Below are positions 16,676 through 33,841 of a stretch of DNA of 33,841 bases, piece after piece; positions within the stretch are counted from its first letter, which is position 1, and each line of letters starts with the position of its first letter. The translations under genes and the position numbers were made by a program. This stretch comes from Pseudomonadota bacterium. GTDB taxonomy: Bacteria; Pseudomonadota; Gammaproteobacteria; Burkholderiales; Burkholderiaceae_C. The notes under the pieces are model-generated. The model worked only from the letters and a program-made list of their open reading frames with translations, was not told the origin of the DNA and did no database searches. The stretch covers positions 1 through 33,841 of the forward strand of contig JAIUOM010000034.1 in the NCBI GenBank assembly GCA_020161215.1. Reading direction: 5' to 3'.

Positions 16676-16682
16676 GCCCGCC

Positions 16683-17324: not shown

Positions 17325-17416
17325 GGGCGAATCATCTCCAGGTGGGGTGGGGCGCGGTCATTCTACGGTCGGGCCTGGGGTTGCAGGGGGTGGGCGTTCG
17401 GCTCCCGCTCAGGCGG

Positions 17417-18271: not shown

Positions 18272-18274
18272 GGT

Positions 18275-18330
18275 TAGCTATTGAAACAGTAGCTGCTCAG
18301 GATTCAGCGGCGCCGGCCTCGGGCAGATTT
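18275..18330. repeat. AT-rich dispersed repeat, copy 2 (upstream of proC)
   Basis: TAGCTATTGAAACAGTAGCTG forms an imperfect hairpin (18275-18295), followed after 26 bases by GGC and a T-run. It has the same layout as the copies at 4451 and 18570. It occupies the space directly before the proC start and would cover a ribosome-binding site. The rest of the 141-base gap between proC and the VOC gene shows no further feature. Confidence 0.6.
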
Positions 18331-18412
18331 TTCCCATATTCTGACCGCGCCGGCGAGGGCTTGGGCGGCGCTTTGTCGGACCGGGCGCGGTCTGGGCGGC
18401 GCACGCCGCGTC

Positions 18413-19246
18413 TCAGCCCGCATCTCCACCCAGCCAGAGCGGCATGCCGTGGGTGCGCGCCGGATCAAGCCGCTTCGCCGGGCCTTGGCCGCGCACCTGC
18501 AGGGCAAAGGGGCCTTCGCCGTCGCCCTCGCCCTGGCGCGCCAGGCGTTCCTGGAGCGGCTTGGCGACTTCAAAATCAATAGCTGATCTGGAAGTATCCA
18601 CGCCGGCCAATGGCCTAAAAAGCTCGAAATCGGTGTCCGCCAGCCGGTAGCTGGCCCCGCCGGGCCGGGGCTGCAGCGGGAGGTCCGGGCCGAGCAGGGC
18701 TTGCCAGCGGGTGCGGGTGAGTTCGAAATCCCGTGCCGCCACGGCCACGTGGGCGATGCCGGTGGCGCGGTTGGCATGCTGGCGCGCCGCGCCTTCGGGC
18801 ACGCGCAGGGCGCGCGGCGTGAGGTCGGCGCACAGAAAGGGCACGTCGGGCGTGTCGTGGCGGGCGCTTTCCCAATCGATGCGCACGCCGTCCGGGCGGT
18901 GCCGCCCGCCGGGGATGGGGCCGCGCAGCGTGCCGAGGCCGCGCGCCTGGGCCGCGGCCAACGCGGGGCCCACGGCGCCGGGCAGCAGGGCGTGATCGAC
19001 CAGGCCTTCGCCGTGCGCCTGCAAGGTGCGCCACCAGCGTTCTTCGGGGGCGGGGGCGCGCCAGGCAATGATCTCGATGTAGGCGCCGTCCTCGAACACC
19101 ACCAGCGCGTTGTGCGAGGTACGGCCGGGGTGCGCGCCGCCGGGCGTGACGGTGAAACCCAGGGCGCGGAAGTTCTCGCTGGCGCGCGCCAGATCGTGCA
19201 CCGCCAGCACCACGTGGTCGAGCTGGCGCAACTGGGGCTCGGTCAT
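18413..19246 (-). CDS. Glyoxalase-like (VOC superfamily) protein
   Basis: 277 residues. The N-terminal LRQLDHVVLAVHDLARASENFRALGF and YIEIIAW, plus a second VOC half around IAHVAVAARDFELTRTRWQALLG, give two beta-alpha-beta-beta-beta modules. His27 and Glu residues could bind a metal, but the reaction is unknown. Residues about 207-225 (PLAGVDTSRSAIDFE) are encoded by a degenerate copy of the AT-rich dispersed repeat. It starts five bases after the Bug binding-protein stop, so the two form an operon. The ATG giving MTEPQLRQLD is used. Confidence 0.87.
   Translation of the reverse strand: MTEPQLRQLDHVVLAVHDLARASENFRALGFTVTPGGAHPGRTSHNALVVFEDGAYIEIIAWRAPAPEERWWRTLQAHGEGLVDHALLPGAVGPALAAAQARGLGTLRGPIPGGRHRPDGVRIDWESARHDTPDVPFLCADLTPRALRVPEGAARQHANRATGIAHVAVAARDFELTRTRWQALLGPDLPLQPRPGGASYRLADTDFELFRPLAGVDTSRSAIDFEVAKPLQERLARQGEGDGEGPFALQVRGQGPAKRLDPARTHGMPLWLGGDAG
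18570..18622. repeat. AT-rich dispersed repeat, copy 3 (inside the VOC gene)
   Basis: TCAAAATCAATAGCTG followed after 26 bases by GGCCTAAAAA. TAGCTG-N26-GGCC has the same spacing as the intergenic copy at 4451. It is translated in frame on the minus strand and lies near the end of the second VOC module. Confidence 0.6.
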
Positions 19247-19251
19247 GGGCG

Positions 19252-20244
19252 TCACTCGACGACCTTGAGGCCGGTGGTCTTGACGAACTGCGTCCAACGG
19301 TCGTACTGCTGCTTGGTGTAGCGATCCAGCGCAGGGCCGTCGCTGGCCACCACTTCAAAGCCCAAGGCGTTGAGTCTTTGCTTCACGTCGGGGGTGTTCA
19401 GCGCGCCCTGAAACTCGCCGGTCAGCTTGGCGACGGTGGCGCCGGGCGTGGCGGAGGGCGCGAAGATGCCGATCCACGAATAGGCCTCGAAGCCCGGAAA
19501 GCCGGATTCGGCCACCGTGGGTACGTTGGGCAGATCGGGCAGGCGGGTGGCGCCGGTCACGGCCAGGGGCTTGACCTTGCCGGCCGAAATTTGCCCCTTG
19601 AGGGCGGCGTAGGACAGCAAGGTCAGGCTGGCCTGATCGCTGATCACCGCCTGCACGGCCGGGCCGCCGCCGCCGTGCGGCACGTGCAGCACGAAGATGC
19701 CGGCCTGGCGCTTGATGTCTTCCATCACCAGGTGGTTCATCGAGCCGACGCCGGTGGAGGCGTAGGAAAAACGCGCCGGCTGCTTGCGCGCCGCCGCCAC
19801 GAATTCGCGCAGGTTGGCCGCCGGCACGCTGGCCGAGGCGCCGATGACCAGCGGAAAGCGCACCGCCAAGCTCACGCCGACGAAGTCCTTGAAGGTGTCG
19901 TAGGGCAGGTTGGGCTTGACGATGGGGTTGATGGCGTGGGTGTCGAAGCACACCAGCAAGGTGTTGCCGTCGGGCGCGGCGCGGGCCACGAACTGGGTGC
20001 CGATCTGGCTGGCGGCGCCGGGCTTGTTGTCGACGATGACCGAGCGCCGGGCCAGCTCGCCCAGGCGCGGCTGGATGGTGCGGGCGGTGATGTCGGTGCT
20101 GCCACCGGGCGGAAAGGTGACCACCAGGCGCAACGGCGGGCCATCCTGGGCTTGGGACGTCAGGGGCAGGCCCAGCAACGTGGCACCGCTGCCCAGTGCG
20201 GCGGCTTGGACGAACTGACGACGGGAAGGCACGAAGGTTGGCAT
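19252..20244 (-). CDS. Tripartite tricarboxylate transporter binding protein (Bug/TctC family)
   Basis: 330 residues. The N-terminus carries a twin-arginine-type signal, SRRQFVQAAALGSG, ending near SQAQDG, so the mature protein is periplasmic. Family landmarks are LRLVVTFPPGGSTDITAR, VDNKPGAASQIG, APDGNTLL and PNVPTVAESGFPGFE. Bug proteins bind small carboxylates. No TctA/TctB membrane genes are adjacent, as is common for the expanded Bug families of Burkholderiales. The ATG is preceded by AGGAGAG. The VOC gene follows after five bases; the gene diverges from the thiamine-diphosphate enzyme. Confidence 0.95.
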   Translation of the reverse strand: MPTFVPSRRQFVQAAALGSGATLLGLPLTSQAQDGPPLRLVVTFPPGGSTDITARTIQPRLGELARRSVIVDNKPGAASQIGTQFVARAAPDGNTLLVCFDTHAINPIVKPNLPYDTFKDFVGVSLAVRFPLVIGASASVPAANLREFVAAARKQPARFSYASTGVGSMNHLVMEDIKRQAGIFVLHVPHGGGGPAVQAVISDQASLTLLSYAALKGQISAGKVKPLAVTGATRLPDLPNVPTVAESGFPGFEAYSWIGIFAPSATPGATVAKLTGEFQGALNTPDVKQRLNALGFEVVASDGPALDRYTKQQYDRWTQFVKTTGLKVVE

Positions 20245-20314
20245 ACGAAGCTCTCCTAGGGTGGAACAAATATAGGGCCGTGGGGCGGTCTGACCAGTGG
20301 GGTAGCCGGAAATT

Positions 20315-20369
20315 TTGCTTGCTAAATAAGCATTCTTATAAGTATACTTAACCACATACACAGATGCAA
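20315..20369. promoter_or_regulatory. Overlapping divergent promoters with palindromic operator
   Basis: The perfect 12-base palindrome TAAGTATACTTA (20339-20350) has the GT-AT-AC core common in GntR/FCD operators. It covers -10 hexamers in both directions. Leftward, TTGCAT (20369-20364) is 17 bases from TATACT (20346-20341). Rightward, TTGCTT (20315) is 16 bases from TATAAG (20337), or TTGCTA (20319) is 18 bases from TATACT (20343). A second inverted repeat, TGCTT/AAGCA, lies just left. The remaining part of the 233-base gap shows no gene. Confidence 0.6.
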
Positions 20370-20477
20370 GCCCAAGCCGGTGATCGCGATCGCCACGCGC
20401 CCAAGACCCGGCGCGACTTGCGCGCAAAGCCCGGACCGCACGGATTTCAAACTTGACCAGACCCACGGAGTAGCGAA

Positions 20478-22199
20478 GTGACCACGACAATGAACGGCGC
20501 CCAAGCCCTACTGAAGATGCTGGAGTTGCACGGCGTGACGCATGTGTTTGGCCTGCCGGGGGAAACCACCATCGGCTGGTACAAAGAGTGGCAAAAGGGC
20601 TCGAGCATCGAGTACGTGCTGACCCGCGACGAACGCACCGCCTCTTTTGCCGCCGAGGCCTATGCCAAGGTCACCGGGCGGCCCTGCGTGCTGGAGGCGC
20701 CCAGCCCCGGGGTGACCCATTGCACGCCGGGCATCACCGAGGCCTACCTGAGTTCGGTGCCGGTGATCTTCTTCAGCTCGGACATCCCGGTGAACCAGGA
20801 CAAGAAGCACGGCCTGACCGGCGTCGACCAGACCGCCTTGTACGCCAGCATTTGCAAGGAGTCGTTCTACCTGACCAGCGTCAAGGACATCCCCTTCATG
20901 CTGCGCCGTGCCTTCCGCGTGGCGACGTCTGGCCGCCCGGCACCGGTGCACATCCGGGTGCCGATCAACATCTTCCACGAGCGCGCCGAGCTGTCCGACC
21001 TGTACGCCGAGCCCGAATACCAGCACTACCCCGCGCACCGGCCGGTGGCCGACCACGGGAAGATCCGCGAGGCGATTCTGGTCTTGCTGGCGGCCGAAAA
21101 ACCGCTGATCGTGTGCGGGCAAGGGGCCTTGATTTCGAAGGCGTCCGAGGTTGTGCTGGCGCTGGCCGAGCGCCTGCAGATCCCCATCGCCACCACCACG
21201 CCAGGCAAGGGCGCGGTGCCCGAGACGCACCCCTTGGCGCTGCGCGTCATTGGCGCGCGCGGCGGCATGGACTATTCGAACCGCTACGCCTTGGAGGCCG
21301 ATACGGTGTTCTTCATTGGCAGCAACACCGATTCCAGCTCCACCAACCACTGGAAGCTGTACGGCGACCCCGGCAGCAAGACCTTTTTGCACCTGGACAT
21401 CGCGGAAGCCCATGTCGGCAACAACTTCCCGGTGAAAGTGGGCCTGGTGGGCGATGCCCGGGCGACCCTGGCGTATATGTTGGAGCTGATCGAGGCCGAG
21501 CACGGCGACGTGCGGCGCCAGCCGCTCGATCTGACCGAGACCAAGCGCGCCGCGCTGGACGCCGTGTTCAACTCGACCGTGGCCATGCCGGCAGGCACGA
21601 TTTCCCCGGTGAAACTGTCGCAGGCCCTGGACGCCCTCTTGCCGCCCAACGCCATCGTGACCGCCGAGCCGGGGGTCAGCGCCATTTACCCGTCGGCGCT
21701 GCTGTCCGTGCGCGAAGCCGGGCGCCGCTACCTCACCAATTATTCGATGGGGGCCCTGGGCTACGCGGTGCCGGCCGGCATCGGCGCGGCCTATGCCAAC
21801 GACGGCCCGGTGATCTCGTTCACGGGCGATGGCTCGTTGGCCTTTGTCCTGGGTGACTTTGAAACCATCAAGCGCAGCGGGAAAAACATCACCGTGATCC
21901 TGACCCGCAACGACACCTACGGCTGGATTCGCGGCGAGGCGATTTTGCTGGACGGCGTGGACGCCCCGTGGACCACCGATTTTGGCGCGGTGGACTACGT
22001 CAAGGTGGCCGAGGGCTTTGGTTTTGCCACCGCACGGATCACGTCGGAAGAGCAGATCGAGGCCGTGCTGAGAGAGGCCATCGAAAACCCGGGCGCCAAC
22101 TTCATCGAGGTGGTCGTTCCGTCGCAGGACCAGATCGTGCCTTTCGTGCCGCCCTGGGTTCAGGCCGCGAAAGACAAGAAGTTGCCGTACTTCGAGTGA
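20478..22199 (+). CDS. Thiamine-diphosphate-dependent enzyme, acetolactate synthase-like
   Basis: 573 residues with the three domains of the ALS/benzoylformate decarboxylase family. The catalytic Glu52 lies in RDERTASFAAEAYAK. The central domain contains LIVCGQGALIS. The cofactor motif begins G450-D451-G452 and ends at N478. Nothing in the sequence fixes the substrate; I do not recognise it as sulfoacetaldehyde acetyltransferase or classic IlvB, and no small subunit gene is adjacent. The GTG start is preferred over an ATG four codons later because GGAG lies seven bases upstream. It diverges from the Bug/VOC operon and is followed by a GntR gene 68 bases on. Confidence 0.88.
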   Translation: MTTTMNGAQALLKMLELHGVTHVFGLPGETTIGWYKEWQKGSSIEYVLTRDERTASFAAEAYAKVTGRPCVLEAPSPGVTHCTPGITEAYLSSVPVIFFSSDIPVNQDKKHGLTGVDQTALYASICKESFYLTSVKDIPFMLRRAFRVATSGRPAPVHIRVPINIFHERAELSDLYAEPEYQHYPAHRPVADHGKIREAILVLLAAEKPLIVCGQGALISKASEVVLALAERLQIPIATTTPGKGAVPETHPLALRVIGARGGMDYSNRYALEADTVFFIGSNTDSSSTNHWKLYGDPGSKTFLHLDIAEAHVGNNFPVKVGLVGDARATLAYMLELIEAEHGDVRRQPLDLTETKRAALDAVFNSTVAMPAGTISPVKLSQALDALLPPNAIVTAEPGVSAIYPSALLSVREAGRRYLTNYSMGALGYAVPAGIGAAYANDGPVISFTGDGSLAFVLGDFETIKRSGKNITVILTRNDTYGWIRGEAILLDGVDAPWTTDFGAVDYVKVAEGFGFATARITSEEQIEAVLREAIENPGANFIEVVVPSQDQIVPFVPPWVQAAKDKKLPYFE

Positions 22200-22267
22200 C
22201 GAGAGCCCCGTGCGAGTCCCTGAAAATTACGCATACTCATGCTGCTCATCCCTACAAGTGCTCGCTG

Positions 22268-23020
22268 ATGCCCTCCAAAGTTGACGCTCCGCACGCCGTG
22301 CGTGTGAAATCCGGGTCCCATGGTGTGGGCGCCATTTCCACCGCCCGGCGCGCGCGCGGCTCCGACGTGCTGAACCGTCTGCGCGACATGGCCATTGCCT
22401 ACGAGCTGAAACCCGGTGAGCGCTTGTCCGAGATCGAGTTGGCCGAGCGCCTGGGCGTCAGCCGCACGCCGGTGCGCGAGGCGCTGGCGCGGCTGGTCAC
22501 CGATGGTTTTCTGGCGCCGGCCAGCCGCGGCTTCGTGCGCCGCCCGCTGGACGTGCAGGAAACGCTGGATTTGTACGAGGCGCGCCTGGCCATCGAGCGC
22601 GAATGCCTGCGCCTGGCGCTCACGCGCGCCACGCCCGAGCAAATCGAGGAGGCGCAAGACTACCTGGCCGGCAGCCGTCAGGTGCGCCCGCCCACCCCGG
22701 TGCGCGAGCTGGTGGCGCTGGACGAGGCCTTCCATCTGCGCATTGCCGCCATGGCCCACAACGCCGAGTTGCTGCGCCTGCTGGAGAACCTGAACCAACG
22801 CATCCGCTTCGTGCGCTGGCTGGCCATGGAAAGCGTGGGCCGCGAATCGACCCAGGAGCAGCACCAGCAACTGCTCGACGCCCTGGCCGCCGGCCAGGCC
22901 GAGGAAGCCGAGCGCTGCCTGAGCCAGCACATCGGCCTGCGCCGCGAGCAGGTGGTGGAGGCGATTGGGCGTGGGCTGGCGCGCATCTACATGCCGCAAG
23001 AGGACGCCGCGCAACCCTGA
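22268..23020 (+). CDS. GntR-family regulator, FCD subfamily
   Basis: 250 residues. After about 28 probably disordered residues comes the winged helix-turn-helix (AERLGVSRTPVREALARL). The FCD domain keeps the metal-site pattern: LDEAFHLRIAAMAHN, then EQHQQLLDAL and SQHIGLR. It lies downstream of the thiamine-diphosphate enzyme on the same strand and probably controls the divergent promoters carrying TAAGTATACTTA (inference). The ATG giving MPSKVDAPH has no strong ribosome-binding site, so the start could be further in. Confidence 0.92.
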   Translation: MPSKVDAPHAVRVKSGSHGVGAISTARRARGSDVLNRLRDMAIAYELKPGERLSEIELAERLGVSRTPVREALARLVTDGFLAPASRGFVRRPLDVQETLDLYEARLAIERECLRLALTRATPEQIEEAQDYLAGSRQVRPPTPVRELVALDEAFHLRIAAMAHNAELLRLLENLNQRIRFVRWLAMESVGRESTQEQHQQLLDALAAGQAEEAERCLSQHIGLRREQVVEAIGRGLARIYMPQEDAAQP

Positions 23021-23032
23021 GGCGGGCCCGCC
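23021..23032. terminator. Possible bidirectional terminator stem
   Basis: A perfect GC palindrome, GGCGGGCCCGCC, lies in the 16 bases between the stops of two convergent genes. There is no T-run and almost no loop, so terminator function is only suggested by position. Confidence 0.25.
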
Positions 23033-23036
23033 TGGC

Positions 23037-24089
23037 TCAGTGGCCGGGCGGCGGCGCGGTGCTGCCGCGCACCACCAGCTCCACCGGGTACTGCATGACG
23101 CGCTCGTGGGGCTGGTTTTCCAGCCGGGCGATCAGTTGTTCGGCGGCGCCGTGGCCGATGGCCGTGACGGGGGTCGCCACGCTGGTCAACGGCGGCGTCT
23201 GGGTGGCGCCAAGGTCGGTGTTGTCCACCCCGGTCACCGACAGCTGCTCGGGAATGCGAATGCCCAGCTTGCGGCAGGCCAGCATGGTGCCGACCGCGAA
23301 CACGTCGTTGGTGGCCACCACGGCGCTGGGGCGCTGAGGCTGGCTGAGCAGTTGCGTGGCGGCCGCCTCGGCCTCCGGCAGGGAAATAGCGGCGTAGGCC
23401 ACGTGGCGCTCGTCCAGCGTCAGGCCGTGTTGCGCCAGCGTGCCGCGCAGTCCCTCGCCACGCGCCCGGGCGCGGTCGTTGCCCGTCAGGTGGGCGCTGA
23501 GCAGGCCGATGTGGCGATGCCCCAGCGCAATCAGGTGCCGTGCCACCAGCTGGGTGGCGGCCTGGTTGTCGAAGCCGATGCAGGGGTGGCGCTGCGCGGG
23601 GTCGGCGCCCCAGGTCAGCACGTAGGGGCGGCCGTAGTCGTCCAGCAGGGAAAACAAGGCCTGCTCATGGTCCAGGCCGACCAGCACGAAGGCGTCCACC
23701 CCATGCTCGATCAACTGGCCGGCCAGGCGTGTTTCGACGGCCAGGTCGTAGTGGTGTTCGGCCAGCACCACCACGTAGCCGCGCTCACCCAGCCGCTGCT
23801 GCAAGGCGCTGGTGGTGCGCGCGTACAGCGCGTAGTCGAAACTGGGCACGAGGGCCCCCACCATCTTGCTGCGGTGGCTGCGCAAGGCGCGCGCCGCGCC
23901 GTGCGGCACATAGCGCAGCTTGGCGGCGGCGTCGAGCACGCGCTGGCGGGTGTCGGGGTCGACCGAACCCGGCTGGTTCATGGCGCGCGAGACGGTGGCC
24001 GTGGAAACGCCCGCCAGTTGCGCCACGTCCTTGGCGCCCGAGCGTGTCTTGCGGGCAGTGAATTCGGGTGGGGCGGTGGGCGGAAGCAT
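23037..24089 (-). CDS. LacI-family transcriptional regulator
   Basis: 350 residues. The N-terminal helix-turn-helix is KDVAQLAGVSTATVSRAMNQPGSV, with the hinge helix near AARALRSHRSKMVGALVPS. The periplasmic-binding-protein-like effector domain follows (IGLLSAHLTGNDRARARGEGL, SAVVATNDVFAVG, LSVTGVDNTDLG). Its short ~10-residue extension before the HTH is ordinary. It diverges from the ABC transporter/sulfatase/glycerol operon and very probably represses it. Two CG-centred operators lie in the shared 205-base spacer, one close to its own start. Confidence 0.94.
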   Translation of the reverse strand: MLPPTAPPEFTARKTRSGAKDVAQLAGVSTATVSRAMNQPGSVDPDTRQRVLDAAAKLRYVPHGAARALRSHRSKMVGALVPSFDYALYARTTSALQQRLGERGYVVVLAEHHYDLAVETRLAGQLIEHGVDAFVLVGLDHEQALFSLLDDYGRPYVLTWGADPAQRHPCIGFDNQAATQLVARHLIALGHRHIGLLSAHLTGNDRARARGEGLRGTLAQHGLTLDERHVAYAAISLPEAEAAATQLLSQPQRPSAVVATNDVFAVGTMLACRKLGIRIPEQLSVTGVDNTDLGATQTPPLTSVATPVTAIGHGAAEQLIARLENQPHERVMQYPVELVVRGSTAPPPGH

Positions 24090-24118
24090 GACAGGGCGCT
24101 TGGGGAGTGTGCCGCAAT

Positions 24119-24132
24119 AGTAAACGTTTGCA
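24119..24132. promoter_or_regulatory. LacI-type operator, near the regulator gene
   Basis: AGTAAACGTTTGCA is centred on CG with an 8-base perfect core AAACGTTT. Five of seven positions are symmetric across the halves, typical of LacI-family sites. It lies 30 bases before the lacI-type start, where it would allow autorepression. Confidence 0.6.
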
Positions 24133-24231
24133 CGACACGCTTTCGCCCATTTCGGAACAAGATCAAACCCAAGAAATACGGGTAATCCCGGGACGATTTT
24201 CGCAGAGCAGTCGATAGACTTGGGGCACCGA

Positions 24232-24245
24232 TGTAATCGATTTCA
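24232..24245. promoter_or_regulatory. LacI-type operator, near the transporter operon
   Basis: TGTAATCGATTTCA matches a near-perfect palindrome, six of seven positions in each half, of the LacI-family form TGNAATCGATTNCA. The candidate -10 hexamer TGTAAT is inside it, so binding would block the operon promoter. It lies about 113 bases centre-to-centre from the other operator, close to a whole number of helical turns, which could allow looping. A further AACGTT palindrome is at 24258-24263. Confidence 0.62.
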
Positions 24246-24294
24246 TGAACCTGGTCCAACGTTCCAAGGCGATGGGCCGCACAGGAGGCACGGC

Positions 24295-25692
24295 ATGAGG
24301 CGAGTGATCCAGAGCCAAGGGGGCGCCACACGGCGCGAGATCGTCGGCGGCGCGGCCGCCCTGGGGGTGGCGATGTGGAGCGGGCGCGCCTGGGCTCAGG
24401 CCAGTGCCGACCTGGGACCGTACCAGCAGGCCAAGATCAACTGGCGGCAAGCCGAGGGCGAGTCGATCTCGGTGGCGGTGATTCCGGCCAGCTACTTTGA
24501 AAACCTGCTCAGCCTGCTGCCGCAGTTCGAGGCCCTCACCGGTATCAAGGTGCGGCCCGAGAAGGTGCCGCCCGGGCAGATCCGCCAGAAGGCGATGCTG
24601 GATCTGTCGTCCAAGACCGGCACCTACGCCACCCACGCGGCCGACCCCATGTACTACCCGCTGTACGTGGCCAACAAGTGGGTCGACCCGCTGGACCGCT
24701 ACCTGAACGACGCCACGCTGACGGACCCGGCCTGGTTCAACTATGGTGACATCCTGAAGGCCTGGCGCGAGGCCGATTCCATCGACGGCAAGCCCTACGG
24801 CATTCCCTACGACGGCGAGGTGACCGTGCAGGTCTACCGCAAGGACCTGTACGCGGCCAAGAACCTCAAGCCGGCCGAGACCTACGACCAGTTGCTGGCC
24901 AACGCCAAGGCCTTGAACGACCCGGCCAACCGCGCCTATGGCCTGGCCTTGCGCGGCTTTGCCGGTGCTGGGCAGAACATGTACATCTACCCCTCGCTGC
25001 TGCGCGGCTTTGGCGGTGGCTGGTTCCAGGGCAAGGTGCTGACAGTGAACACGCCGGAGGCGGTGAAGGCACTGGAGTGGTACGTGAACGCGCTCACCCA
25101 GTACGCGCCGCCTGCCGTGCGCAACTGGAACTGGCCGGACATCGCCGACGCCTTCTCGCAGGGCTCGGTGGCCTGCTACGTGGACGCGCACTCGTCCGCC
25201 GCCGTCATCACCAACCCCGAAAAGTCCAAGGTGGTGGGCAAGGTGGCCTACGCGCGCTGGCCCAAGGGGCCGGCGGGCAAGCGCGTCACCTCGATCTGGA
25301 ACTGGGGCTTTCCCATCAACGCCGCGCTGTCCGAGAAGACCAAGCGCGCCACCTGGCTGTTCATCAGCTGGGCCGCGGCGGCCGAGACCCAGGCGCGCAC
25401 CTCCTGGAAGTTCGACGGGCCGGCCAAACGCTCGGGCCTGAACCGCCTGTCGCTGTGGAAGTCGCCCGAGTTTGCCGAGGCCATGAAGAACGCCGGCGAC
25501 AACTTCATCCCCGCGGCGCTGGAGTCGCTGGAGCAGGACACCGACGTCGATTGGCGCCCACGCGTGCCGCAGTGGCCGGCGGTGGGCGAGACCATGGCCA
25601 CGGCCATTCAATCCGCCCTGGTGGGGCAGAAAAAGCCGAAGGAAGCGCTGGACGAGGCCCAGGCGCGCATTGCCCAGGTCATGAAAAGCTGA
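24295..25692 (+). CDS. ABC transporter extracellular binding protein, carbohydrate type (family 1)
   Basis: 465 residues. The N-terminus has a twin-arginine-like signal (TRREIVGGAAALGVAM, ending near AWAQA), so the mature protein is periplasmic. The pattern LLPQFEALTGIKVRPEKVPPGQIRQKAMLDL, IDGKPYGIPYDGEVTVQVYRKDLY and SIWNWGFPIN is that of family 1 sugar/polyol binding proteins, closer to polyol-binding SmoE-type proteins than to UgpB by eye. The ligand is unknown. The ATG is preceded by AGGAGG at a good distance. It is the first gene of a tightly packed operon whose other members suggest a sulfated or glycerol-containing ligand. Confidence 0.92.
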   Translation: MRRVIQSQGGATRREIVGGAAALGVAMWSGRAWAQASADLGPYQQAKINWRQAEGESISVAVIPASYFENLLSLLPQFEALTGIKVRPEKVPPGQIRQKAMLDLSSKTGTYATHAADPMYYPLYVANKWVDPLDRYLNDATLTDPAWFNYGDILKAWREADSIDGKPYGIPYDGEVTVQVYRKDLYAAKNLKPAETYDQLLANAKALNDPANRAYGLALRGFAGAGQNMYIYPSLLRGFGGGWFQGKVLTVNTPEAVKALEWYVNALTQYAPPAVRNWNWPDIADAFSQGSVACYVDAHSSAAVITNPEKSKVVGKVAYARWPKGPAGKRVTSIWNWGFPINAALSEKTKRATWLFISWAAAAETQARTSWKFDGPAKRSGLNRLSLWKSPEFAEAMKNAGDNFIPAALESLEQDTDVDWRPRVPQWPAVGETMATAIQSALVGQKKPKEALDEAQARIAQVMKS

Positions 25693-25698
25693 GCGCCC

Positions 25699-26595
25699 AT
25701 GAGCCTTGCCGCCCCCATCGACGTGATGGCGCGGCAGGAGCGGCGTTTCGCGCTGGCGTTGTTCGCGCCGGCCTTTGTGCTGCTGCTGCTGATCACTACC
25801 GCGCCGCTGATCTTCCTGGCCTGGAACAGCCTGCAGAAGCTGGACATGAGCATGCCCTGGCTGTCCGGCTTCGCTGGGCTGGACAACTACGCCAAGATGG
25901 GGGGCGACCCGCGTTTCTGGAATTCCCTGGCGCTGACGGCGGTCTACACCGCCTCCACGGTGGTGCTGCAGGTGTTCATTGGCCTGTCGCTGGCCCTGCT
26001 GGTGCTGCAAATTCCCCGTGGTCAGGCGCTGCTGCGGGTGGCGGCCATCCTGCCCATCGTGCTGGCGCCGGTGGTGGTGGGCCTGTTCTGGCGCACCCTG
26101 GTGCTGGCGCCCGACGTGGGCCTGGTGGACGTGGTGACGCGCGCGCTGGGCCTGGGCAGCCACAACTGGCTGGGTGACCCGCAGCTGGCGCTGATCTCGG
26201 TCATCGCCATCCACACCTGGCAATGGACACCGTTCGCCTTTCTGGTGCTGCTGGCCACCCTGGCCACGCTGCCGCCCGATGTGTACGAAGCGGCGCGGCT
26301 GGATCGCGCCGGGCCGGCGCAGCGCTTTTGGCACATCACGCTGCCGCTGATCCGACCGGCGGTGGTGATGGTGGTCATCCTGCGCACCATGACGGCGCTG
26401 TCGGCGTTCGCGGCGATCTTTGCCGCCACCGGAGGCGGCCCGGGCACCGCCACCGAAATCCTGAACCTGTACGCCTACCGCACCTCGTTCACCGAGCTGA
26501 ACCTGGGGTATGGCTCGGCGCTGGCGATGGTGCTGCTGGCCATCACTGTGCTCATTTCCTGGCTGCTGTTCAGCCGCCGAAAGGCCCGGGCATGA
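25699..26595 (+). CDS. ABC transporter permease (MalF/UgpA-like)
   Basis: 298 residues with about six transmembrane helices. The cytoplasmic EAA loop, EAARLDRAGPAQRFW, contacts the ATPase. It belongs to the CUT1 carbohydrate importer class. It begins six bases after the binding-protein gene and overlaps the second permease by four bases (ATGA). It forms the translocation channel with that protein. Confidence 0.94.
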   Translation: MSLAAPIDVMARQERRFALALFAPAFVLLLLITTAPLIFLAWNSLQKLDMSMPWLSGFAGLDNYAKMGGDPRFWNSLALTAVYTASTVVLQVFIGLSLALLVLQIPRGQALLRVAAILPIVLAPVVVGLFWRTLVLAPDVGLVDVVTRALGLGSHNWLGDPQLALISVIAIHTWQWTPFAFLVLLATLATLPPDVYEAARLDRAGPAQRFWHITLPLIRPAVVMVVILRTMTALSAFAAIFAATGGGPGTATEILNLYAYRTSFTELNLGYGSALAMVLLAITVLISWLLFSRRKARA

Positions 26596-27434
26596 TCGCC
26601 CCGCGCGCAAGTCGGCAAGCGCTGCTGCTGGTGGTGGCCGGGTTGCTGGTGTCGGTGTGGGCGTTTCCGGTGCTGTGGGCGCTGCTGACTTCGTTCAAGA
26701 CCGAGCGCGACGTGCTGGCCTACCCGCCACTGCTGGTGTTCAGCCCGACCTTGACCAACTATCAGGACGTGCTGTGGGGCCCGTCCTCGATCCTGCCCAA
26801 CCTGTGGTCCAGCCTGGTGGTGAGCTGCGCCGCCACGGCGCTGACAATGCTGTTTGCCGTGCCCGCCGCCTACGCGCTGGCGCGCCTGCGCTATCCCGGA
26901 CGGCGCATCAGCGGCTTTTATGTGCTGGCCACGCAGATGCTGCCGCCGGTGGGGCTGGTGATTCCCTACTACCTGGTGCTGCAGCGGGTGGGCTGGCTGG
27001 ACAGCTACAGCGGGCTGGTCACCATCTACCTGACGTTTTCCTTGCCGTTCGCGATCTGGCTGCTGGTGTCGTATTTCGAAGATGTGCCTTATGAGATGGA
27101 AGAAGCCGCGTTGCTGGACCGCGCCGGCCGTCTGCGCGCGCTCTGGTACGTGATCCTGCCGCAGGTGCGCGGCGGCATGGCGGTGACCACGGTGTTTGTG
27201 TTCCTGAACGCCTGGAACGAATTCATGTTCGCGGTGGTGCTGGGTGGCAACCGGGTGCGGCCGGTCACCGTGGCGATGTTCAATTTCATCTCTGTCGAGC
27301 AGACGCAGTGGGCGCGTCTGGCGGCCGGGGCCATGGTGGCCATGGCCCCGGTAATCATCGTCGGGCTGCTGGCGCAGCGCCATATCGTCAAGGGCCTCAC
27401 GGTGGGCGCGGTCAAGGGAGGGGGGCGTCGATGA
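26592..27434 (+). CDS. ABC transporter permease (MalG/UgpE-like)
   Basis: 280 residues with about six transmembrane helices and the EAA loop EEAALLDRAGRLRALW. It is the second channel subunit of the CUT1 importer. Its ATG lies inside the stop of the first permease, and its own stop overlaps the ATPase start, so all three are translationally coupled. The upstream extension of the open frame is out of frame with the first permease and is discarded. Confidence 0.94.
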   Translation: MIAPRASRQALLLVVAGLLVSVWAFPVLWALLTSFKTERDVLAYPPLLVFSPTLTNYQDVLWGPSSILPNLWSSLVVSCAATALTMLFAVPAAYALARLRYPGRRISGFYVLATQMLPPVGLVIPYYLVLQRVGWLDSYSGLVTIYLTFSLPFAIWLLVSYFEDVPYEMEEAALLDRAGRLRALWYVILPQVRGGMAVTTVFVFLNAWNEFMFAVVLGGNRVRPVTVAMFNFISVEQTQWARLAAGAMVAMAPVIIVGLLAQRHIVKGLTVGAVKGGGRR

Positions 27435-28489
27435 GCACAGGCAAGGGCGCGGTGCGGTTCGAGGGCGTGGTCAAGCGCCACGGGCCGACCACGGTGCTGC
27501 ATGGCGTGGATCTGGAGATCCAGGCCGGCGAATTTTTCGTGCTGCTGGGGCCTTCTGGGTCCGGCAAGACCACCACGCTGCGCATCCTGGCCGGCCTGGA
27601 GCCGGTCAGTGGCGGGCGCGTGTTCATTGATGGCGAGGACGTCACCACGGTGGAGCCGGGCGCCCGTGACGTGGCCATGGTGTTTCAGAGCTATGCGCTG
27701 TACCCGCACATGACGGTGGAGCAGAACATCGGCTTTCCGCTGCGCATGGTCGGCACGCCGCGCCAAGCCGTCGAGCAGGCCGTGCGCGACGCCGCCACGC
27801 GCGTCAGCATCGACCATTTGCTCAAACGCCGGCCGGGCCAGTTGTCGGGTGGCCAGCAGCAGCGCGTGGCGTTGGCGCGCGCCATCGTGCGCCAGCCCAG
27901 GTTGTTCTTGCTGGACGAACCGCTGTCCAACCTGGACGCCAAGCTGCGCCTGGAAACGCGCCTGGAACTCAAGCAACTGCAGCGCGCGCTGGGCGTGACC
28001 ACGGTCTATGTCACCCACGACCAGGAGGAAGCCATGACCCTGGCCGATCGCGTGGCCGTGTTCATGGACGGGCGCATCGTGCAAGTGGCCACGCCGCGCG
28101 ACATCTACGGTCGGCCGGCGCAGGTGGCGGTGGCCGGCTTCATCGGCACGCCGCCGATGAATCTGCTGCCGGGTGTGTGGCAGGGCGCCGAAGTGCGGAT
28201 CGACGGCGTGGCGCATCCGGTGCCGGCCCATGCGCCGCAGGCGCGCGAGGTGACCGTAGGTGTGCGCCCGGGTGACTTGCACCCGGGGCCCGTCGGCAGT
28301 GCGGCGCGCGTGAACTACATCGAGGAGCTGGGCGACCACCGCATTCTGGACCTGGATGCGGGCGGCCAACGCCTGAAGCTCAAGACCGACGCTCGCAACG
28401 ACCTGGTCGAGGGCGACACGATCCACGTCGGCTTCGAGCCGGCGGCGGTGCACCTTTTCGACCGCGCCAGCGGCGCCCGCCTGAACTGA
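27431..28489 (+). CDS. ABC transporter ATPase (MalK/UgpC-like)
   Basis: 352 residues. Walker A GPSGSGKTT (40-48), Q-loop Gln86, signature LSGGQQQ (138-144), Walker B FLLDEP (159-164) and switch His196 are all intact. The C-terminal ~110 residues form the regulatory TOBE/OB domain of the CUT1 ATPases (VGVRPGDLHPG and VGFEPAAVHLFD). It powers import by the two permeases and may energise only this system, as its gene is coupled to theirs. The sulfatase gene begins 26 bases later. Confidence 0.95.
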   Translation: MSTGKGAVRFEGVVKRHGPTTVLHGVDLEIQAGEFFVLLGPSGSGKTTTLRILAGLEPVSGGRVFIDGEDVTTVEPGARDVAMVFQSYALYPHMTVEQNIGFPLRMVGTPRQAVEQAVRDAATRVSIDHLLKRRPGQLSGGQQQRVALARAIVRQPRLFLLDEPLSNLDAKLRLETRLELKQLQRALGVTTVYVTHDQEEAMTLADRVAVFMDGRIVQVATPRDIYGRPAQVAVAGFIGTPPMNLLPGVWQGAEVRIDGVAHPVPAHAPQAREVTVGVRPGDLHPGPVGSAARVNYIEELGDHRILDLDAGGQRLKLKTDARNDLVEGDTIHVGFEPAAVHLFDRASGARLN

Positions 28490-28515
28490 ACCCGCTCACC
28501 CACAAGGGAACCACC

Positions 28516-30135
28516 ATGCGCTCCACACGCCCGAACGTCCTGCTGATCCTGAACGACGACATGGGGTATTCCGACATCGGCTGCTACGGCGGCGAGATCG
28601 AGACCCCCCACCTGGACCGCCTGGCTGCGGGCGGACTGCGTTTCTCGCAGTTCTACAACACGGCGCGCTGCAGCCCCTCGCGTGCGTCCTTGCTCACCGG
28701 CCTGCACCCGCACCAGACCGGCATCGGCATCCTGACCTATGACTCGGGACCCGAGGGCTATGCCGGCAACCTGAACCAGCGCTGCGCCACCATTGCCGAG
28801 GTGCTGAAACCCGCGGGTTACCGCAGCTATCTGAGCGGCAAGTGGCATGTGTCGAGCAATCTGGTCGAGCCGACCGACTCGTGGCCGATGCAGCGCGGCT
28901 TTGACGATTTTTTTGGCACCATCATCGGCGCCGGCAGCTTCTATGACCCCAATACGCTGACGCGGCGCAACCAGAACGCTGAGCACGAGGCGCGTGCGCC
29001 GGGCTTTTTCTACACCGACGCCATCAGTGACGAGGCGGTGAAGTTCCTGCGGCAGCACCGCGATGCGCACGCCGACAAGCCCTTCTTTCAGTACGTGGCC
29101 TACACCGCGCCGCACTGGCCGCTGCATGCGCACCCCGAGGACATCGCCAAGTACAAGGGCCGCTTCGACGCCGGCTGGGACCAGCTGCGCGAGCAGCGCC
29201 TGGCGCGCCTGGTGGCCAGCGGTATCCTGGATGCGCAGTGGCAGCTGACGGCGCGCGACCCGCGCCAGCCGCCCTGGACGGAGGCCGAGCACAAGGCCTG
29301 GCTGGCCAACTGCATGGAGGTGTACGCGGCGCAGATCGATCGCATGGACCAGGGCATTGGCCGCATCCTGGCGGCGCTGCAGGACATGGGTCAACTGGAC
29401 GATACGCTGGTGATTTTCCTGTCCGACAACGGCGCCTGCGCCGAGGACATCCCCGAGGGCGTGACGGTGGACGAGTTGGTCAGCAAGCTGATGATCGCCC
29501 GCTCGCACACCCGGGACGGCGCCGTGGTGCGCTTTGGCAACACCCCGGACATTGCCCCCGGCCCCGAAGACACCTACCAGAGCTACGGCCAGGCCTGGGC
29601 CAATCTGTCGAACACGCCGTTCCGGCTGTACAAACACTGGACGCACGAGGGCGGCATTTCCACGCCGCTGATCTTCCACTGGCCGGCCGGCATCGCGCAG
29701 CGTGGCGAGGTCCGCCACACACCGGGCTACTTGCCGGACATCATGGCCACCATTGTCGAGGTGGCGCAGGCGGCCTATCCCGAGCAGCTGGGCGAGCGCG
29801 ACATCCTGCCGCTGGAAGGCCATTCGCTGGCCGGCGCCTTCGCGGCCGACGCGCCCGAGCGCCCGCCCATGTTCTGGGAGCACGAGGGCAACGCCGCCAT
29901 GCGCGACGGCCGCTGGAAGCTGGTGCGCGAGTACCCCAAGGCCTGGGAGCTGTACGACATGCAAGCCGACCGGACCGAACTGCACGACCTGGCCGCCCAG
30001 CAGCCCGAACGCGTGGCCCGCATGGCCGGGCAGTACCAAGCCTGGGCTCAGCGCGCCGGGGTGCTGCCGCGCGATCAGGTGCTGGCGCTGATGCGCAGCC
30101 AGGGCGTGACCCAGGCCTTCTGGGAAGAGGAGTGA
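28516..30135 (+). CDS. Formylglycine-dependent sulfatase, arylsulfatase family, cytoplasmic
   Basis: 539 residues. The N-terminal NVLLILNDDMGYSDIG gives metal-binding D14/D15. The activation motif C52-S-P-S-R is the Cys-type formylglycine site, whose Cys52 must be oxidised to formylglycine. Other conserved parts are GKWH and FLSDNGA. Architecture and length match Pseudomonas aeruginosa AtsA. There is no signal peptide, so it acts in the cytoplasm on an imported sulfate ester. The ATG follows AAGGGA. It is coupled to a formylglycine-generating enzyme whose GTG overlaps its stop codon. Confidence 0.95.
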   Translation: MRSTRPNVLLILNDDMGYSDIGCYGGEIETPHLDRLAAGGLRFSQFYNTARCSPSRASLLTGLHPHQTGIGILTYDSGPEGYAGNLNQRCATIAEVLKPAGYRSYLSGKWHVSSNLVEPTDSWPMQRGFDDFFGTIIGAGSFYDPNTLTRRNQNAEHEARAPGFFYTDAISDEAVKFLRQHRDAHADKPFFQYVAYTAPHWPLHAHPEDIAKYKGRFDAGWDQLREQRLARLVASGILDAQWQLTARDPRQPPWTEAEHKAWLANCMEVYAAQIDRMDQGIGRILAALQDMGQLDDTLVIFLSDNGACAEDIPEGVTVDELVSKLMIARSHTRDGAVVRFGNTPDIAPGPEDTYQSYGQAWANLSNTPFRLYKHWTHEGGISTPLIFHWPAGIAQRGEVRHTPGYLPDIMATIVEVAQAAYPEQLGERDILPLEGHSLAGAFAADAPERPPMFWEHEGNAAMRDGRWKLVREYPKAWELYDMQADRTELHDLAAQQPERVARMAGQYQAWAQRAGVLPRDQVLALMRSQGVTQAFWEEE

Positions 30136-31070
30136 AAGCCTGCTGCACGCCCCAGGCGGTCCGACCGGCCGGCGTGGTGCCGGCGGCGGGGACGGCCAGG
30201 GGCCAAGCGGCGATCGACTGGGTGGCTTTGCCCGGGGGGCGCTTTCTGATGGGCACCGATTCGCGCGAGGGTTTTGCCGAGGACGGCGAGGGTCCGGCGC
30301 GCGAGGTCACGGTGAGCGCCTTCGCGCTGGGGCGCACGGCGGTCACCAATGCCCAGTTTCGCGACTTCGTGCGTGCCACGCGCCATGTCACGCAGGCCGA
30401 GGCGGCCGGGAATTCTTTCGTCTTCTACCTGCAGGTGGCGCCCGAGCTGCGCCAGGCCACGCGCCAGGTGGCGCGCGACGTGCCCTGGTGGCTGCCGGTG
30501 GAGGGCGCCTGCTGGCAGCGGCCCGAGGGGCCGGGCTCGTCGATGCTGGAGCGGCTGGACCACCCGGTGGTGCACATCTCGTGGCACGACGCGCAGGCTT
30601 TCTGTGCCTGGGCTGGCGCGCGGCTGCCGACCGAGGCGGAGTGGGAGTTCGCGGCGCGTGGCGGCCTGGCCGGCCAGCGCTATCCCTGGGGCGACGAGCT
30701 GGTCGACGGTGGGCGCGGCCAGTGCCAGATCTGGCAGGGCGAGTTTCCGGCCCACCCCGCGCCGGGCTGGGCGCCCGGCACCCTGCCGGCGCAAGCCTTG
30801 CCGCCCAACGGCCATGGTTTGCACCACATGGTGGGCAACACCTGGGCCTGGTGCGCCGACTGGTTCAGCCCCGACTACCACCGTGAAACGCCGGCGCTGG
30901 ACCCCGTGCAGTCCAGGATGACCGGGCGGCGCTCGCAGCGCGGCGGCTCGTTCCTGTGCCACGCCTCGTATTGCAATCGCTACCGGGTGGCGGCGCGCGG
31001 CGCCAACACCCCCGACACCAGCACCAGCCACTGCGGCTTTCGCGTGGCGCGCTCGGGGCCACTACAGTAG
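30132..31070 (+). CDS. Formylglycine-generating enzyme (sulfatase maturase, FGE/SUMF1 type)
   Basis: 312 residues. This oxygen- and copper-dependent enzyme converts the sulfatase Cys to formylglycine. The catalytic pair C276 and C281 lies in [15 protein letters not shown], followed by [13 protein letters not shown], which matches human and bacterial FGEs closely. Earlier landmarks are [16 protein letters not shown] and [15 protein letters not shown]. The start is a GTG inside the TGA of the sulfatase (GTGA overlap), with GAAGAGGAG just upstream, so sulfatase and maturase are made in step. The glycerol kinase gene follows after seven bases. Confidence 0.96.
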
Positions 31071-31077
31071 TGCCACC

Positions 31078-32616
<1,539 letters not shown>

Positions 32617-32672
32617 GCGCCGCCGCGCCGGCCTCCGCCGATTCGTCCCGAAAATCGTCGTATCGTTGCGCC

Positions 32673-33841
32673 ATGAGCACCACGCCCCTGCCCACCGACC
32701 GCGCCGCGTTGCTGCAACGCCTGGCCGAACCGCGCCGCTACGACATCGCCATCGTCGGCGGGGGCGCCACCGGCCTGGGCGTGGCGGTGGACGCCGCGCT
32801 GCGCGGCCACAGCGTGCTGCTGGTGGAAGCGCAGGATTTCGCCAAGGGCACCTCGTCGCGCGCCACCAAGCTGGTGCACGGCGGCGTGCGCTACCTGGCC
32901 CAGGGCAACATCCACCTGGTGCGCGAGGCCTTGCGCGAGCGCGTGCACATGCTCGACAGCGCGCCGCACCTGGCCCAGCCGCTGCCTTTCGTGATGCCCT
33001 CGTACCGCCTGTGGGAAACGCCGTTCTATGGCGTCGGCCTGAAGATGTACGACGCGCTGGCCGGGCGCGCCGGGCTTGGGCGCACCGAGTGGCTTGGCGC
33101 GAGCCAGGCGCGCGGCCTGCTGCCTGGCGCCCAGCCGCGGGGGCTGCGCGGCGGCGTCAAGTACTGGGACGGCCAGTTCGACGATGCCCGCCTGGCGCTG
33201 GCGCTGGCACGCACGGCAGCCGCCAAGGGCGCGCTGCTGGTCAACTACTGCCCCGCGCTTGAACTGCTGCATGAAGGCGGCAAGGTCGCCGGCCTGGTCT
33301 GCGAAGACACGGAATCGGGCCGGCGCTTCACGCTGCGCGCCAAGTGCGTGGTCAACGCCACCGGCCCCTGGGTGGACCTGTTCCGCCAGCAGGATGCCGA
33401 GGCCCAGGGCCGTCCCGTCAAGCCCATGGTCGCGCCCAGCCAGGGCGTGCACGTGGTCGTGGACCGCGACTTCCTGCCCAGCGATCACGCCCTGCTCGTG
33501 CCCAAGACGGCCGATGGCCGCGTGCTCTTTGCCGTGCCCTGGCTGGGCAAGGTCATCCTGGGCACCACCGACACCCCGCGCAACGACCTGGCACGCGAGC
33601 CCCTGCCGTTCCCCGAGGAGCTGGACTTCATCCTCACCGAGGCCGGACGCTACCTCACGCGCCAGCCCACGCTGGCCGATGTGCGCAGCATGTGGGTGGG
33701 CCTGCGCCCGCTGGTCAAGCCCCAGGACGACGACGGCGAGAACACCAAGAAGATCAGCCGCGAGCACACGGTCATGTCCAGCCGCACCGGCCTGGTCACC
33801 GTGACGGGCGGCAAATGGACCACCTACCGCGCCATGGCCGA
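32673..33841 (+). CDS. glpD: FAD-dependent glycerol-3-phosphate dehydrogenase, 3' truncated by window end
   Basis: 389 codons are visible of an expected ~500-530; the frame is open to the end of the window. It oxidises sn-glycerol 3-phosphate to dihydroxyacetone phosphate and passes electrons to ubiquinone at the inner membrane. The FAD-binding motif is IAIVGGGATGLG (residues 26-35), followed by the family signature GTSSRATKLVHGGVRYL (59-75). FAVPWLGKVILGTTDTP and the late RSMWVGLRPL are also typical. The ATG giving MSTTPLPTD is the first in frame. It completes the glycerol branch of the operon with glpK. Confidence 0.96.
   Translation, partial: MSTTPLPTDRAALLQRLAEPRRYDIAIVGGGATGLGVAVDAALRGHSVLLVEAQDFAKGTSSRATKLVHGGVRYLAQGNIHLVREALRERVHMLDSAPHLAQPLPFVMPSYRLWETPFYGVGLKMYDALAGRAGLGRTEWLGASQARGLLPGAQPRGLRGGVKYWDGQFDDARLALALARTAAAKGALLVNYCPALELLHEGGKVAGLVCEDTESGRRFTLRAKCVVNATGPWVDLFRQQDAEAQGRPVKPMVAPSQGVHVVVDRDFLPSDHALLVPKTADGRVLFAVPWLGKVILGTTDTPRNDLAREPLPFPEELDFILTEAGRYLTRQPTLADVRSMWVGLRPLVKPQDDDGENTKKISREHTVMSSRTGLVTVTGGKWTTYRAMA

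Follow-up and report, generated by a model that had tools for sequence, protein, structure and literature searches.

The window analysed here, a whole contig of 33,841 nucleotides, carries eight co-directional genes that, with a divergent regulator gene, most probably form an operon, under the control of LacI, for the catabolism of glycerol sulfate (as the 1/3-sulfate and/or the 2-sulfate), a reading to which we give a probability of about 0.6. The binding protein and ABC importer would carry this charged ester to the cytoplasm, where the sulfatase, activated by its own formylglycine-generating enzyme (FGE), would hydrolyse glycerol sulfate to glycerol and inorganic sulfate. GlpK would then convert glycerol to glycerol 3-phosphate (G3P), and GlpD would yield dihydroxyacetone phosphate. 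Uptake ahead of desulfation would retain the freely diffusing glycerol in the cell.

Organization and putative regulation of the operon

The eight genes run on the plus strand from 24295 to the contig end, as seen from the open reading frames and their coordinates (Table 1). The intergenic gaps are 6, 26, 7 and 56 bases, and three 4-base overlaps join permease 1 to permease 2, permease 2 to the ATPase, and the sulfatase to the FGE. The Pfam and NCBIfam assignments bear out the first-pass annotation, which had described eight packed genes for a CUT1 importer, a sulfatase, an FGE, glpK and glpD. The eight genes are probably co-transcribed. A promoter scan of 24000-33841 returned no site, but with 0.5 expected this is uninformative.

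Table 1. Features of the window.
Feature	Coordinates	Strand	Assignment
proC-like gene at the left edge of the ancestral proC-glpK interval	17417..18271	-	homologous to L109:7355-8269 (P5CR_dimer)
proC-to-glpK interval, ~12.8 kb	18272..31077		no equivalent in the compared congeners
LacI-family regulator gene, transcribed away from the operon	23037..24089	-	LacI, Peripla_BP_3 (Pfam)
Candidate LacI operator 1, TAGTAAACGTTTGCAC	24118..24133		13/16 to family consensus
Candidate LacI operator 2, ATGTAATCGATTTCAT	24231..24246		15/16 to consensus ATGYAAWCGWTTRCAT
CUT1 substrate-binding protein	24295..25692	+	SBP_bac_1 (Pfam)
ABC permease 1	25699..26595	+	BPD_transp_1
ABC permease 2	26592..27434	+	BPD_transp_1
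ABC importer ATPase, MalK/UgpC type	27431..28489	+	ABC_tran, OB_MalK, TOBE_2
Putative cytoplasmic class I (formylglycine) sulfatase, AtsA-type; RCSPSRASLLTG	28516..30135	+	Sulfatase (Pfam PF00884)
Predicted FGE, GTG start	30132..31070	+	FGE-sulfatase (PF03781), 255 bits
Glycerol kinase glpK	31078..32616	+	GlpK (TIGR01311), above cut-off
Glycerol-3-phosphate dehydrogenase glpD, 3' end beyond contig	32673..33841	+	DAO/GlpD; PRK12266 below cut-off

The LacI gene is divergent from the binding-protein gene at 32 of the 80 related loci described below, and a palindrome is present in all 32 of these spacers, which suggests that the operon is under LacI control. At 13/16 the motif was absent from eight unlinked glpK loci (L098-L103, L105, L106) and from L107, L109 and L112, giving no regulon link to those loci.

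Importer, sulfatase and glycerol genes

The start of the binding protein (24295) was placed by hand, and its N-terminus appears twin-arginine-like by eye. The protein shares 58-86% identity with 28 relatives. Its closest solved structures are 5iai and 4rya, the latter a named sorbitol binder, and the sulfoquinovosyl glycerol binder SmoF is distantly related. This kinship points to polyols. Ugp models were among the best NCBIfam matches of the importer subunits, but all fell below their cut-offs (UgpA 111 vs 335, UgpE 76 vs 297, UgpC 400 vs 432 bits), and the identity as a UgpBAEC importer of G3P was rejected. Glycerol importer operons of the glpSTPQV type have two ATPase genes; the window operon has one, and that identity was rejected too. 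Two ATPase matches were found at L103.

The sulfatase N-terminus (MRSTRPNVLLILNDD), read by eye, has no signal peptide, in agreement with the initial description of an AtsA-type enzyme lacking one. The protein contains CSPSR, which conforms to the formylglycine motif C-x-P-S-R, and the longer motif RCSPSRAS[LM][LM]TG is found in all 80 sulfatase relatives as well as in the window. The nearest solved sulfatases by both sequence and fold are 7all from Bacteroides and 1hdh, the Pseudomonas aeruginosa AtsA, with 33-35% identity in a fold search, the only use made of the structure model (mean pLDDT 75.9). Ten residues aligned with AtsA (D14, D15, C52, R56, K109, H111, H200, D304, N305 and K373), which we take to be its metal- and sulfate-binding residues, are invariant in a 27-sequence alignment. 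The enzyme is predicted to hydrolyse a sulfate ester. Two other identities were rejected by score, namely choline sulfatase (TIGR03417, 108.7 bits vs 433.45) and the phosphoric/sulfuric ester hydrolase PehA (NF045661, 65.5 vs 900). The neighbouring protein combines an FGE-sulfatase domain with LCHxSYCNRYR, presumably the FGE active site with its Cys, and is predicted to be an FGE; LCHxSYC is kept throughout a 73-row alignment.

GlpK scores 703 bits against an NCBIfam equivalog cut-off of 590 and is the sole match detected in its own genome. GlpD is truncated because the window ends with the contig, and scores 271 bits vs 360; the full-length GlpD of L032 reaches 299, and those of L118, L104 and L054 are above the cut-off. 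Further glpD matches in the same genome are weak and partial. In 19 of 20 chosen genomes glpK is single-copy (E<=1e-40), and by hand count 3 of 93 other CUT1 permease matches in these 20 genomes are no more than 10 kb from glpK, and one more is just outside that distance at 10.02 kb.

Conservation of the module and its linkage to glp genes

Among the best 80 relatives, an FGE gene was found in 72, a binding-protein gene in 65, and glpK and/or glpD in 16. The records of these 80 loci name Pseudomonadota groups, save for L062 (labelled an Acidobacteria bin) and L082 (an uncultured bacterium), and the module recurs over them more than by chance. The unit conserved elsewhere is regulator-importer-sulfatase-FGE, to which the glp part is optional: the fetched DNA of 64 loci holds no glp gene, 53 of them with adequate flanks and 11 with a short flank. 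Of the eight-gene set first annotated as a unit, the importer, sulfatase and FGE hold together while the glp part does not, and the 64 loci go part of the way to what that annotation had named as counter-evidence, homologous operons with glpK/glpD transcribed separately and the sulfatase unlinked. The sulfatase-FGE-glpK order that it had proposed to look for is present, with glpK-glpD after the FGE, in 11 of 80 loci, in addition to L024, which is cut just inside glpK. One of the 11, L013, has a TctC gene between FGE and glpK. One conserved operon of all eight genes was rejected on these counts.

The 16 linked loci represent five contexts: glpK-glpD follows the FGE in three, glpD-glpK precedes the importer in one, and MFS-sulfatase-FGE lies beside glpR-glpD-glpK in another. 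A Sulfitobacter plasmid adds a sixth, glpD-glpK-GntR-sulfatase-TRAP-FGE; glpK adjoins the sulfatase in only one of six plasmid records examined of 22. Thus three transporter classes (ABC, MFS and TRAP) accompany the linked sulfatase, and both glp gene orders occur. At L054 a DeoR/GlpR-like gene on the opposite strand separates FGE from glpD, so that the genes there are adjacent rather than a single operon. The roseobacter TRAP binding protein beside the same sulfatase has its closest matches in 4p47 and 8t9t, the second an isethionate binder, and a DHPS TRAP protein ranks lower, which points to small hydroxysulfonates; since these resemble glycerol sulfate, we count this kinship in its favour.

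In a tree of 15 linked and 18 unlinked glycerol kinases, a single clade of linked kinases was rejected (AU p 0.0003). The module has thus been joined to local glp genes more than once. The window's kinase groups with unlinked congeners (support 89, branch not starred). Mapped on the sulfatase tree, linkage requires 6 changes, at least 4 of them forced by starred branches; gains and losses are treated alike, so the three contexts with glpK-glpD after the FGE may go back to one origin and have moved afterwards. The first-pass idea of an imported sulfate ester yielding glycerol gains strength from the five contexts in 80 loci and the plasmid, the three transporter classes and the separate kinase lineages, and glycerol sulfate is the substrate that we infer. 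Tentatively, and at somewhat less than even odds, a dedicated carbon pathway for it may have been assembled several times from one sulfatase-FGE pair, local glycerol genes and interchangeable ABC, MFS or TRAP importers.

Within the genus, the proC-glpK interval is found both occupied and unoccupied. In 5 of 8 congeners fetched, the module is missing and glpK adjoins proC at distances from 110 bp to 3.7 kb, the aligned stretches of L112 being 110 bp apart, while in the window the interval contains the module and a TctC/TPP-enzyme/GntR-like stretch. Homology to the unoccupied relatives sets in close to the glpK start, from 7 bases ahead of it to 12 bases past it, which means that nothing recognisable is retained of the sequence upstream of glpK in those relatives. 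The concatenated module tree gives 64/56 for four Ramlibacter-group loci with the window outside, a result compatible with transfer as well as with vertical descent followed by loss.

Alternative explanations

The substrates might instead be other or broader small organosulfates (sulfates of C2-C5 polyols, hydroxyketones or hydroxyacids), with glp genes optional because glycerol or dihydroxyacetone is only one product. The 64 loci without glp genes would fit this, and extra genes at some loci hint at it: a second distant sulfatase (13 of 80 loci), TauD cluster members (four loci; Pfam run on L037), aldehyde and hydroxyacid-type dehydrogenases (L017), and MR/MLE and GMC neighbours in some clades. 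In the excerpts of PMC12224290, the sulfates of glycolic acid, lactic acid and hydroxyacetone are reported as the most abundant C2-C3 aerosol organosulfates. However, the mean column identity of 74% for the binding protein (29 sequences) and 79% for the sulfatase (27) suggests one ligand, and no other catabolic gene in the neighbour clusters was seen in as many different contexts as glpK, although TctC genes recur too (19 loci). We regard this explanation as rather unlikely.

Coincidence, in which a metabolically unrelated sulfate-scavenging module landed before glycerol genes, would agree with the variable proC-glpK interval, which holds other genes in several relatives, and with the presence of the sulfatase in a single genome among the 29 from the genus. 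The recurrent adjacency, whichever way round the glp genes lie and whichever of three transporter types is present, together with the single-copy glpK makes it improbable. The ligand could also be a sulfated glycerol conjugate, such as the sulfated glycosylglycerol offered as an example by the first-pass annotation, with glycerol released by a glycosidase encoded elsewhere. The sugar/polyol class of the binding protein and its distant relative SmoF are in line with this, but no glycoside hydrolase was found in the scans of neighbouring genes or among 25 listed of 78 families in 62 neighbour proteins (chosen from 96 cluster representatives), which favours plain glycerol sulfate, and the TRAP and MFS versions of the locus suit a small ligand better; a sulfated glycoside is thus disfavoured and quite improbable. 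Least probable, by a small margin, is an alkaline phosphatase superfamily enzyme acting as phosphodiesterase or phosphonate esterase, with an importer for glycerophosphodiester or G3P: the Ugp matches and the potential promiscuity of such hydrolases toward phosphoesters, mentioned in the excerpts of a choline sulfatase study (PMC5870055), speak for it, but the Ugp and PehA scores lie below cut-off, the AtsA residues are invariant, and GlpK would be superfluous if a phosphodiester yielded G3P.

Comparison with known systems

The glycerol ABC importer locus glpSTPQUV of Rhizobium leguminosarum VF39 likewise adjoins glpK and glpD and serves catabolism via glycerol 3-phosphate; as described in the excerpts of a report on its Cupriavidus metallidurans relative (PMC7912956), it has GlpR control, glycerol as ligand and no sulfatase, whereas loci of the window's kind have a LacI or GntR regulator, a sulfatase, an FGE and, in the window, one ATPase. 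Sinorhizobium meliloti BetC, the choline-O-sulfate sulfatase, is also a class I formylglycine enzyme and acts on an alkyl sulfate, according to the excerpts of PMC5870055. Its sulfatase family is separate, as the choline-sulfatase score given above indicates. To our knowledge BetC has no importer-FGE-glp operon. AtsA and 7all share aligned catalytic residues with the window sulfatase; the AtsA context is sulfur scavenging, whereas the neighbours of the window gene are an importer of sugar type, a LacI gene and the glycerol genes. SmoF and the isethionate/DHPS TRAP systems take up small hydroxylated sulfonates, and their binding-protein kinship is distant. Their ligands are C-S sulfonates, which are cleaved by enzymes other than formylglycine sulfatases, whereas the proposed route uses an O-sulfate ester and a formylglycine sulfatase.

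Glycerol sulfate, as two isomers, is reported with other small organosulfates from atmospheric particles, and an alkyl sulfate can be a class I sulfatase substrate (excerpts of PMC12224290 and PMC5870055, respectively). No bacterial route for glycerol sulfate was found in the literature searched, a search with most subscription papers outside it. We propose a specific, testable route by which a small organosulfate could serve as bacterial carbon, and a likely substrate for a sulfatase family labelled only arylsulfatase in records. If correct, glycerol organosulfates, including the kind found in aerosols, would have a biological sink.

The operon and its genome

The draft genome carrying the window (4.52 Mb, completeness 98.13%, contamination 2.95%) holds eight plus-strand genes that run to the end of contig C74, which the window spans in full; the 3' part of GlpD is missing there. 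Pfam and NCBIfam assign them to a CUT1 importer (a binding protein, two permeases and one ATPase), a sulfatase, a formylglycine-generating enzyme (FGE), GlpK and GlpD, all known families. The gene coordinates bear out the tight co-directional packing described in the first-pass annotation, a packing consistent with co-transcription, and the sulfatase, read by eye, indeed has no signal peptide. The motifs CSPSR in the sulfatase and LCHxSYC in the FGE are present. GlpK is the sole match found in this genome and further GlpD matches are weak and partial only; additional sulfatase and FGE homologs lie on other contigs, and one MIP-family match was found elsewhere. Between proC and the divergent LacI gene lie three more genes; the TPP-dependent enzyme scored below the displayed NCBIfam cut-offs and the GntR-like gene was called by eye. 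No such stretch was seen at this place in four loci fetched from relatives (L008, L009, L011, L013).

Coordinates and arrangements in the window and in fetched loci (L-numbers)
Feature	Locus	Position	Strand	Arrangement
TctC-like gene (-), TPP-dependent enzyme (+), GntR-like gene	Window	19252-23020		Between proC and LacI gene
LacI-family gene	Window	23037-24089		Divergent from operon
Palindrome sites	Window	24118; 24231		13/16; 15/16
Operon	Window	24295-33841	+	Importer, sulfatase, FGE, glpK, glpD
Context A	Ramlibacter-group loci, Caenimonas, window			Module, glpK, glpD at proC-rplN site
Context B	L024-L026, L028, L032			glpK-glpD after FGE; L024 cut; GMC gene beyond glpD in four
Context C	L055, L063			glpD-glpK before binding protein
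Context D	L054			MFS-sulfatase-FGE beside DeoR/GlpR-like gene, glpD, glpK
DeoR/GlpR-like gene	L054	about 10620-11430	-	Between FGE and glpD, opposite strand
Context E	L082, L084			glpK-glpD after FGE, followed by a further sulfatase and an AMP-binding gene (Pfam, L082)
Context F	Sulfitobacter faviae plasmid NZ_CP116421.1 (L118)	7984-17551		glpD-glpK-GntR-sulfatase-TRAP(3)-FGE

Conservation of the importer-sulfatase-FGE module

A sulfatase scan of genome contigs gave 396 relatives, of which the best 80 (69-88% identity over the best segment) were examined. All 80 carry RCSPSRAS[LM][LM]TG. An FGE lies in the fetched DNA of 72 loci; six of the eight genomes without a local one have a homolog elsewhere, and two have none, at E<=1e-20. 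The binding protein was found in the fetched DNA of 65 loci. Nine of the remaining 15 have a short left flank, an MFS-cluster gene directly upstream replaces the binding protein in L052, L054 and L062 (Pfam run on L054), and other genes occupy that place in L037, L046 and L048. A divergent LacI gene occurs in 32 of the 80 loci, and in 18 the ATPase and sulfatase genes flank a GntR/UTRA cluster (Pfam searches of L078 and L081). Mean column identity is 74% for the binding protein (29 rows) and 79% for the sulfatase (27 rows). Therefore, from the content of the 80 loci, the conserved unit is regulator, importer, sulfatase and FGE. Close sulfatases are patchily distributed, being found in 3/399 genomes of the order (E<=1e-150) and 1/29 of the genus (E<=1e-100), the organism's own counted in both.

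Several genes accompany the module. ORF clustering places a ClC-type channel gene, possibly an exporter of the released sulfate, after FGE in 12 loci (L061, L064, L066-L069, L071, L072, L076, L078-L080; Pfam searches of L067 and L061). In 13/80 loci a second sulfatase, distant at 25-40% identity, is encoded within or close to the module (L014-L018, L029, L037, L041, L046, L048, L050, L082, L084). Directly 5' of the sulfatase, a TauD-type dioxygenase gene is found in L037, L039, L048 and L049 (ORF cluster; Pfam on L037); this family includes alkylsulfatases. In 16 loci a GMC oxidoreductase cluster is encoded close to the module, on the other strand (L025, L026, L028, L032 and, among L064-L080, those of Bradyrhizobium type); these loci span one beta- and one alphaproteobacterial clade (Pfam run on L025). 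L014, L028, L049 and L084 come from metagenome bins titled Bordetella parapertussis; their sulfatases cluster with sulfatases from other environmental bins, and the titles look doubtful.

Linkage to glycerol genes

Either or both of glpK and glpD stand beside the module in 16/80 loci, 15 with glpK and L012 with glpD only; the fetched DNA of the other 64, 11 with a short flank, contains no glp genes. Conservation of the order sulfatase-FGE-glpK elsewhere, raised in the first-pass annotation, held for the sulfatase with its FGE (72/80) and only in part for glpK, which lies by the module in those 15 loci. An FGGY kinase near L050 was left out of the count, being only 27% identical.

Context A was assigned by comparison for L008, L009, L011 and L013 and by shared flank clusters for L010 and L012; the window's right flank is cut. 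In L104, an extended L055, a DeoR/GlpR-like gene lies 5' of glpD-glpK on the same strand. The L054 arrangement is adjacency, not a single operon, because its DeoR/GlpR-like regulator is on the other strand. Context F came from a separate plasmid search outside the 80 loci, in which 6 of 22 matched records were examined; glpK was not seen at the sulfatase in the other five (two Paracoccus, Labrenzia, Bradyrhizobium, Phaeobacter). The Labrenzia plasmid has a 24% identical FGGY kinase upstream. The Phaeobacter plasmid has a TauD gene and a homolog at 47% identity, and its stretch, like that of Paracoccus albus, yielded no FGE. GlpK exceeds the NCBIfam cut-off in L118, L104, L054, L082 and L025, and GlpD in the first three; GlpD of L032 falls below it.

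INDEPENDENCE. The linked/unlinked label on the sulfatase tree requires 6 changes, gains and losses counted alike, at least 4 of them forced by starred branches. A single clade of linked glycerol kinases was rejected (AU p 0.0003) on a 33-row tree of 15 linked and 18 unlinked kinases, the Sulfitobacter plasmid kinase left out, in which the window kinase groups with unlinked congeners (support 89, not starred).

As a control, 20 genomes were chosen, ten carrying glp genes beside the module and ten lacking them there. glpK is single-copy in 19 (E<=1e-40), and 19 of their 112 CUT1 permease matches are the module's own. By hand count, 3 of the 93 others lie within 10 kb of glpK, in genomes G013, G014 and G006 (in G006 beyond the linked module, 9.97 kb); one in G005, at 10.02 kb, is just beyond the limit. 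The G013 locus (L103) resembles the known glycerol importer operon glpSTPQV, with two ATPase matches beside GlpD.

The proC-glpK site

Eight congener glpK loci (L107-L114) were fetched, L113 and L114 being left out of the proC comparison. A proC-like gene lies beside glpK in five of the eight: in L112 the two aligned stretches lie 110 bp from each other, and in L107, L109, L110 and L111 the gap measures 1.3 to 3.7 kb and contains other genes. No proC alignment was obtained for L108. The same-family genomes L115 and L116 have spacings of about 130 and 100 bp, and several relatives continue from glpK to glpD and the ribosomal genes rplN to secY (Pfam on L115). The window has 12.8 kb between its aligned stretches, and glpK alignments with relatives start 7 bases before to 12 after its start codon. 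The interval also holds the module in L008, L009, L011 and L013. Acquisition of the module by transfer and its loss from congeners both fit a concatenated module tree, in which four Ramlibacter-group loci, the window not among them, are joined at only 64/56.

A candidate LacI operator

The 16-base palindrome ATGYAAWCGWTTRCAT matches at >=14/16 positions in 32/32 divergent LacI/binding-protein spacers, a count that is partly circular because the consensus was drawn from the same spacers. It occurs twice or more in 18 of them, the first two copies 88-127 bases apart, and shuffled spacers contained it in 0.02 of 32 on average. Searching at 13/16 found no copy in L107, L109 and L112 or in L098-L106, a set made up of the linked L104 and eight unlinked glpK loci. 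We propose the palindrome as a candidate LacI operator.

Ligand and proposed pathway

The nearest structures to the ABC binding protein are 5iai, a sugar transporter protein by name, and 4rya, likewise a sorbitol transporter protein, with ribitol and mannitol as their crystal ligands; maltose-type proteins follow and SmoF ranks lower. In roseobacters and relatives it is replaced by a TRAP binding protein, whose closest structures are 4p47 (E 9.7e-33) and 8t9t, an isethionate binder (2.7e-32); a DHPS TRAP protein (1.4e-15) ranks amid many other TRAP proteins. The TRAP importer of L118 has a binding protein with this kinship to isethionate and DHPS binders. A polyol-type pocket, a hydroxysulfonate-type pocket and the yield of glycerol upon desulfation would most simply be reconciled by glycerol sulfate. 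Among solved sulfatases, 7all and AtsA (1hdh) are closest. Alkyl sulfate hydrolysis through S-O cleavage is described as possible for a class I sulfatase (PMC5870055), glycerol sulfate isomers are reported from aerosol particles (PMC12224290), and a table on high-fat-diet mice lists 2,3-dihydroxypropyl sulfate a single time among metabolites (PMC10773723). Neither the gene combination nor the proposed substrate turned up in the literature searched, most subscription journals lying outside its reach.

In the proposed pathway, the ABC system would import the sulfate ester, and the sulfatase, its C52 converted by FGE, would hydrolyze it to glycerol and sulfate. GlpK and GlpD would then carry the glycerol to dihydroxyacetone phosphate. 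In genomes with an unlinked glpK, the module would depend on that copy.
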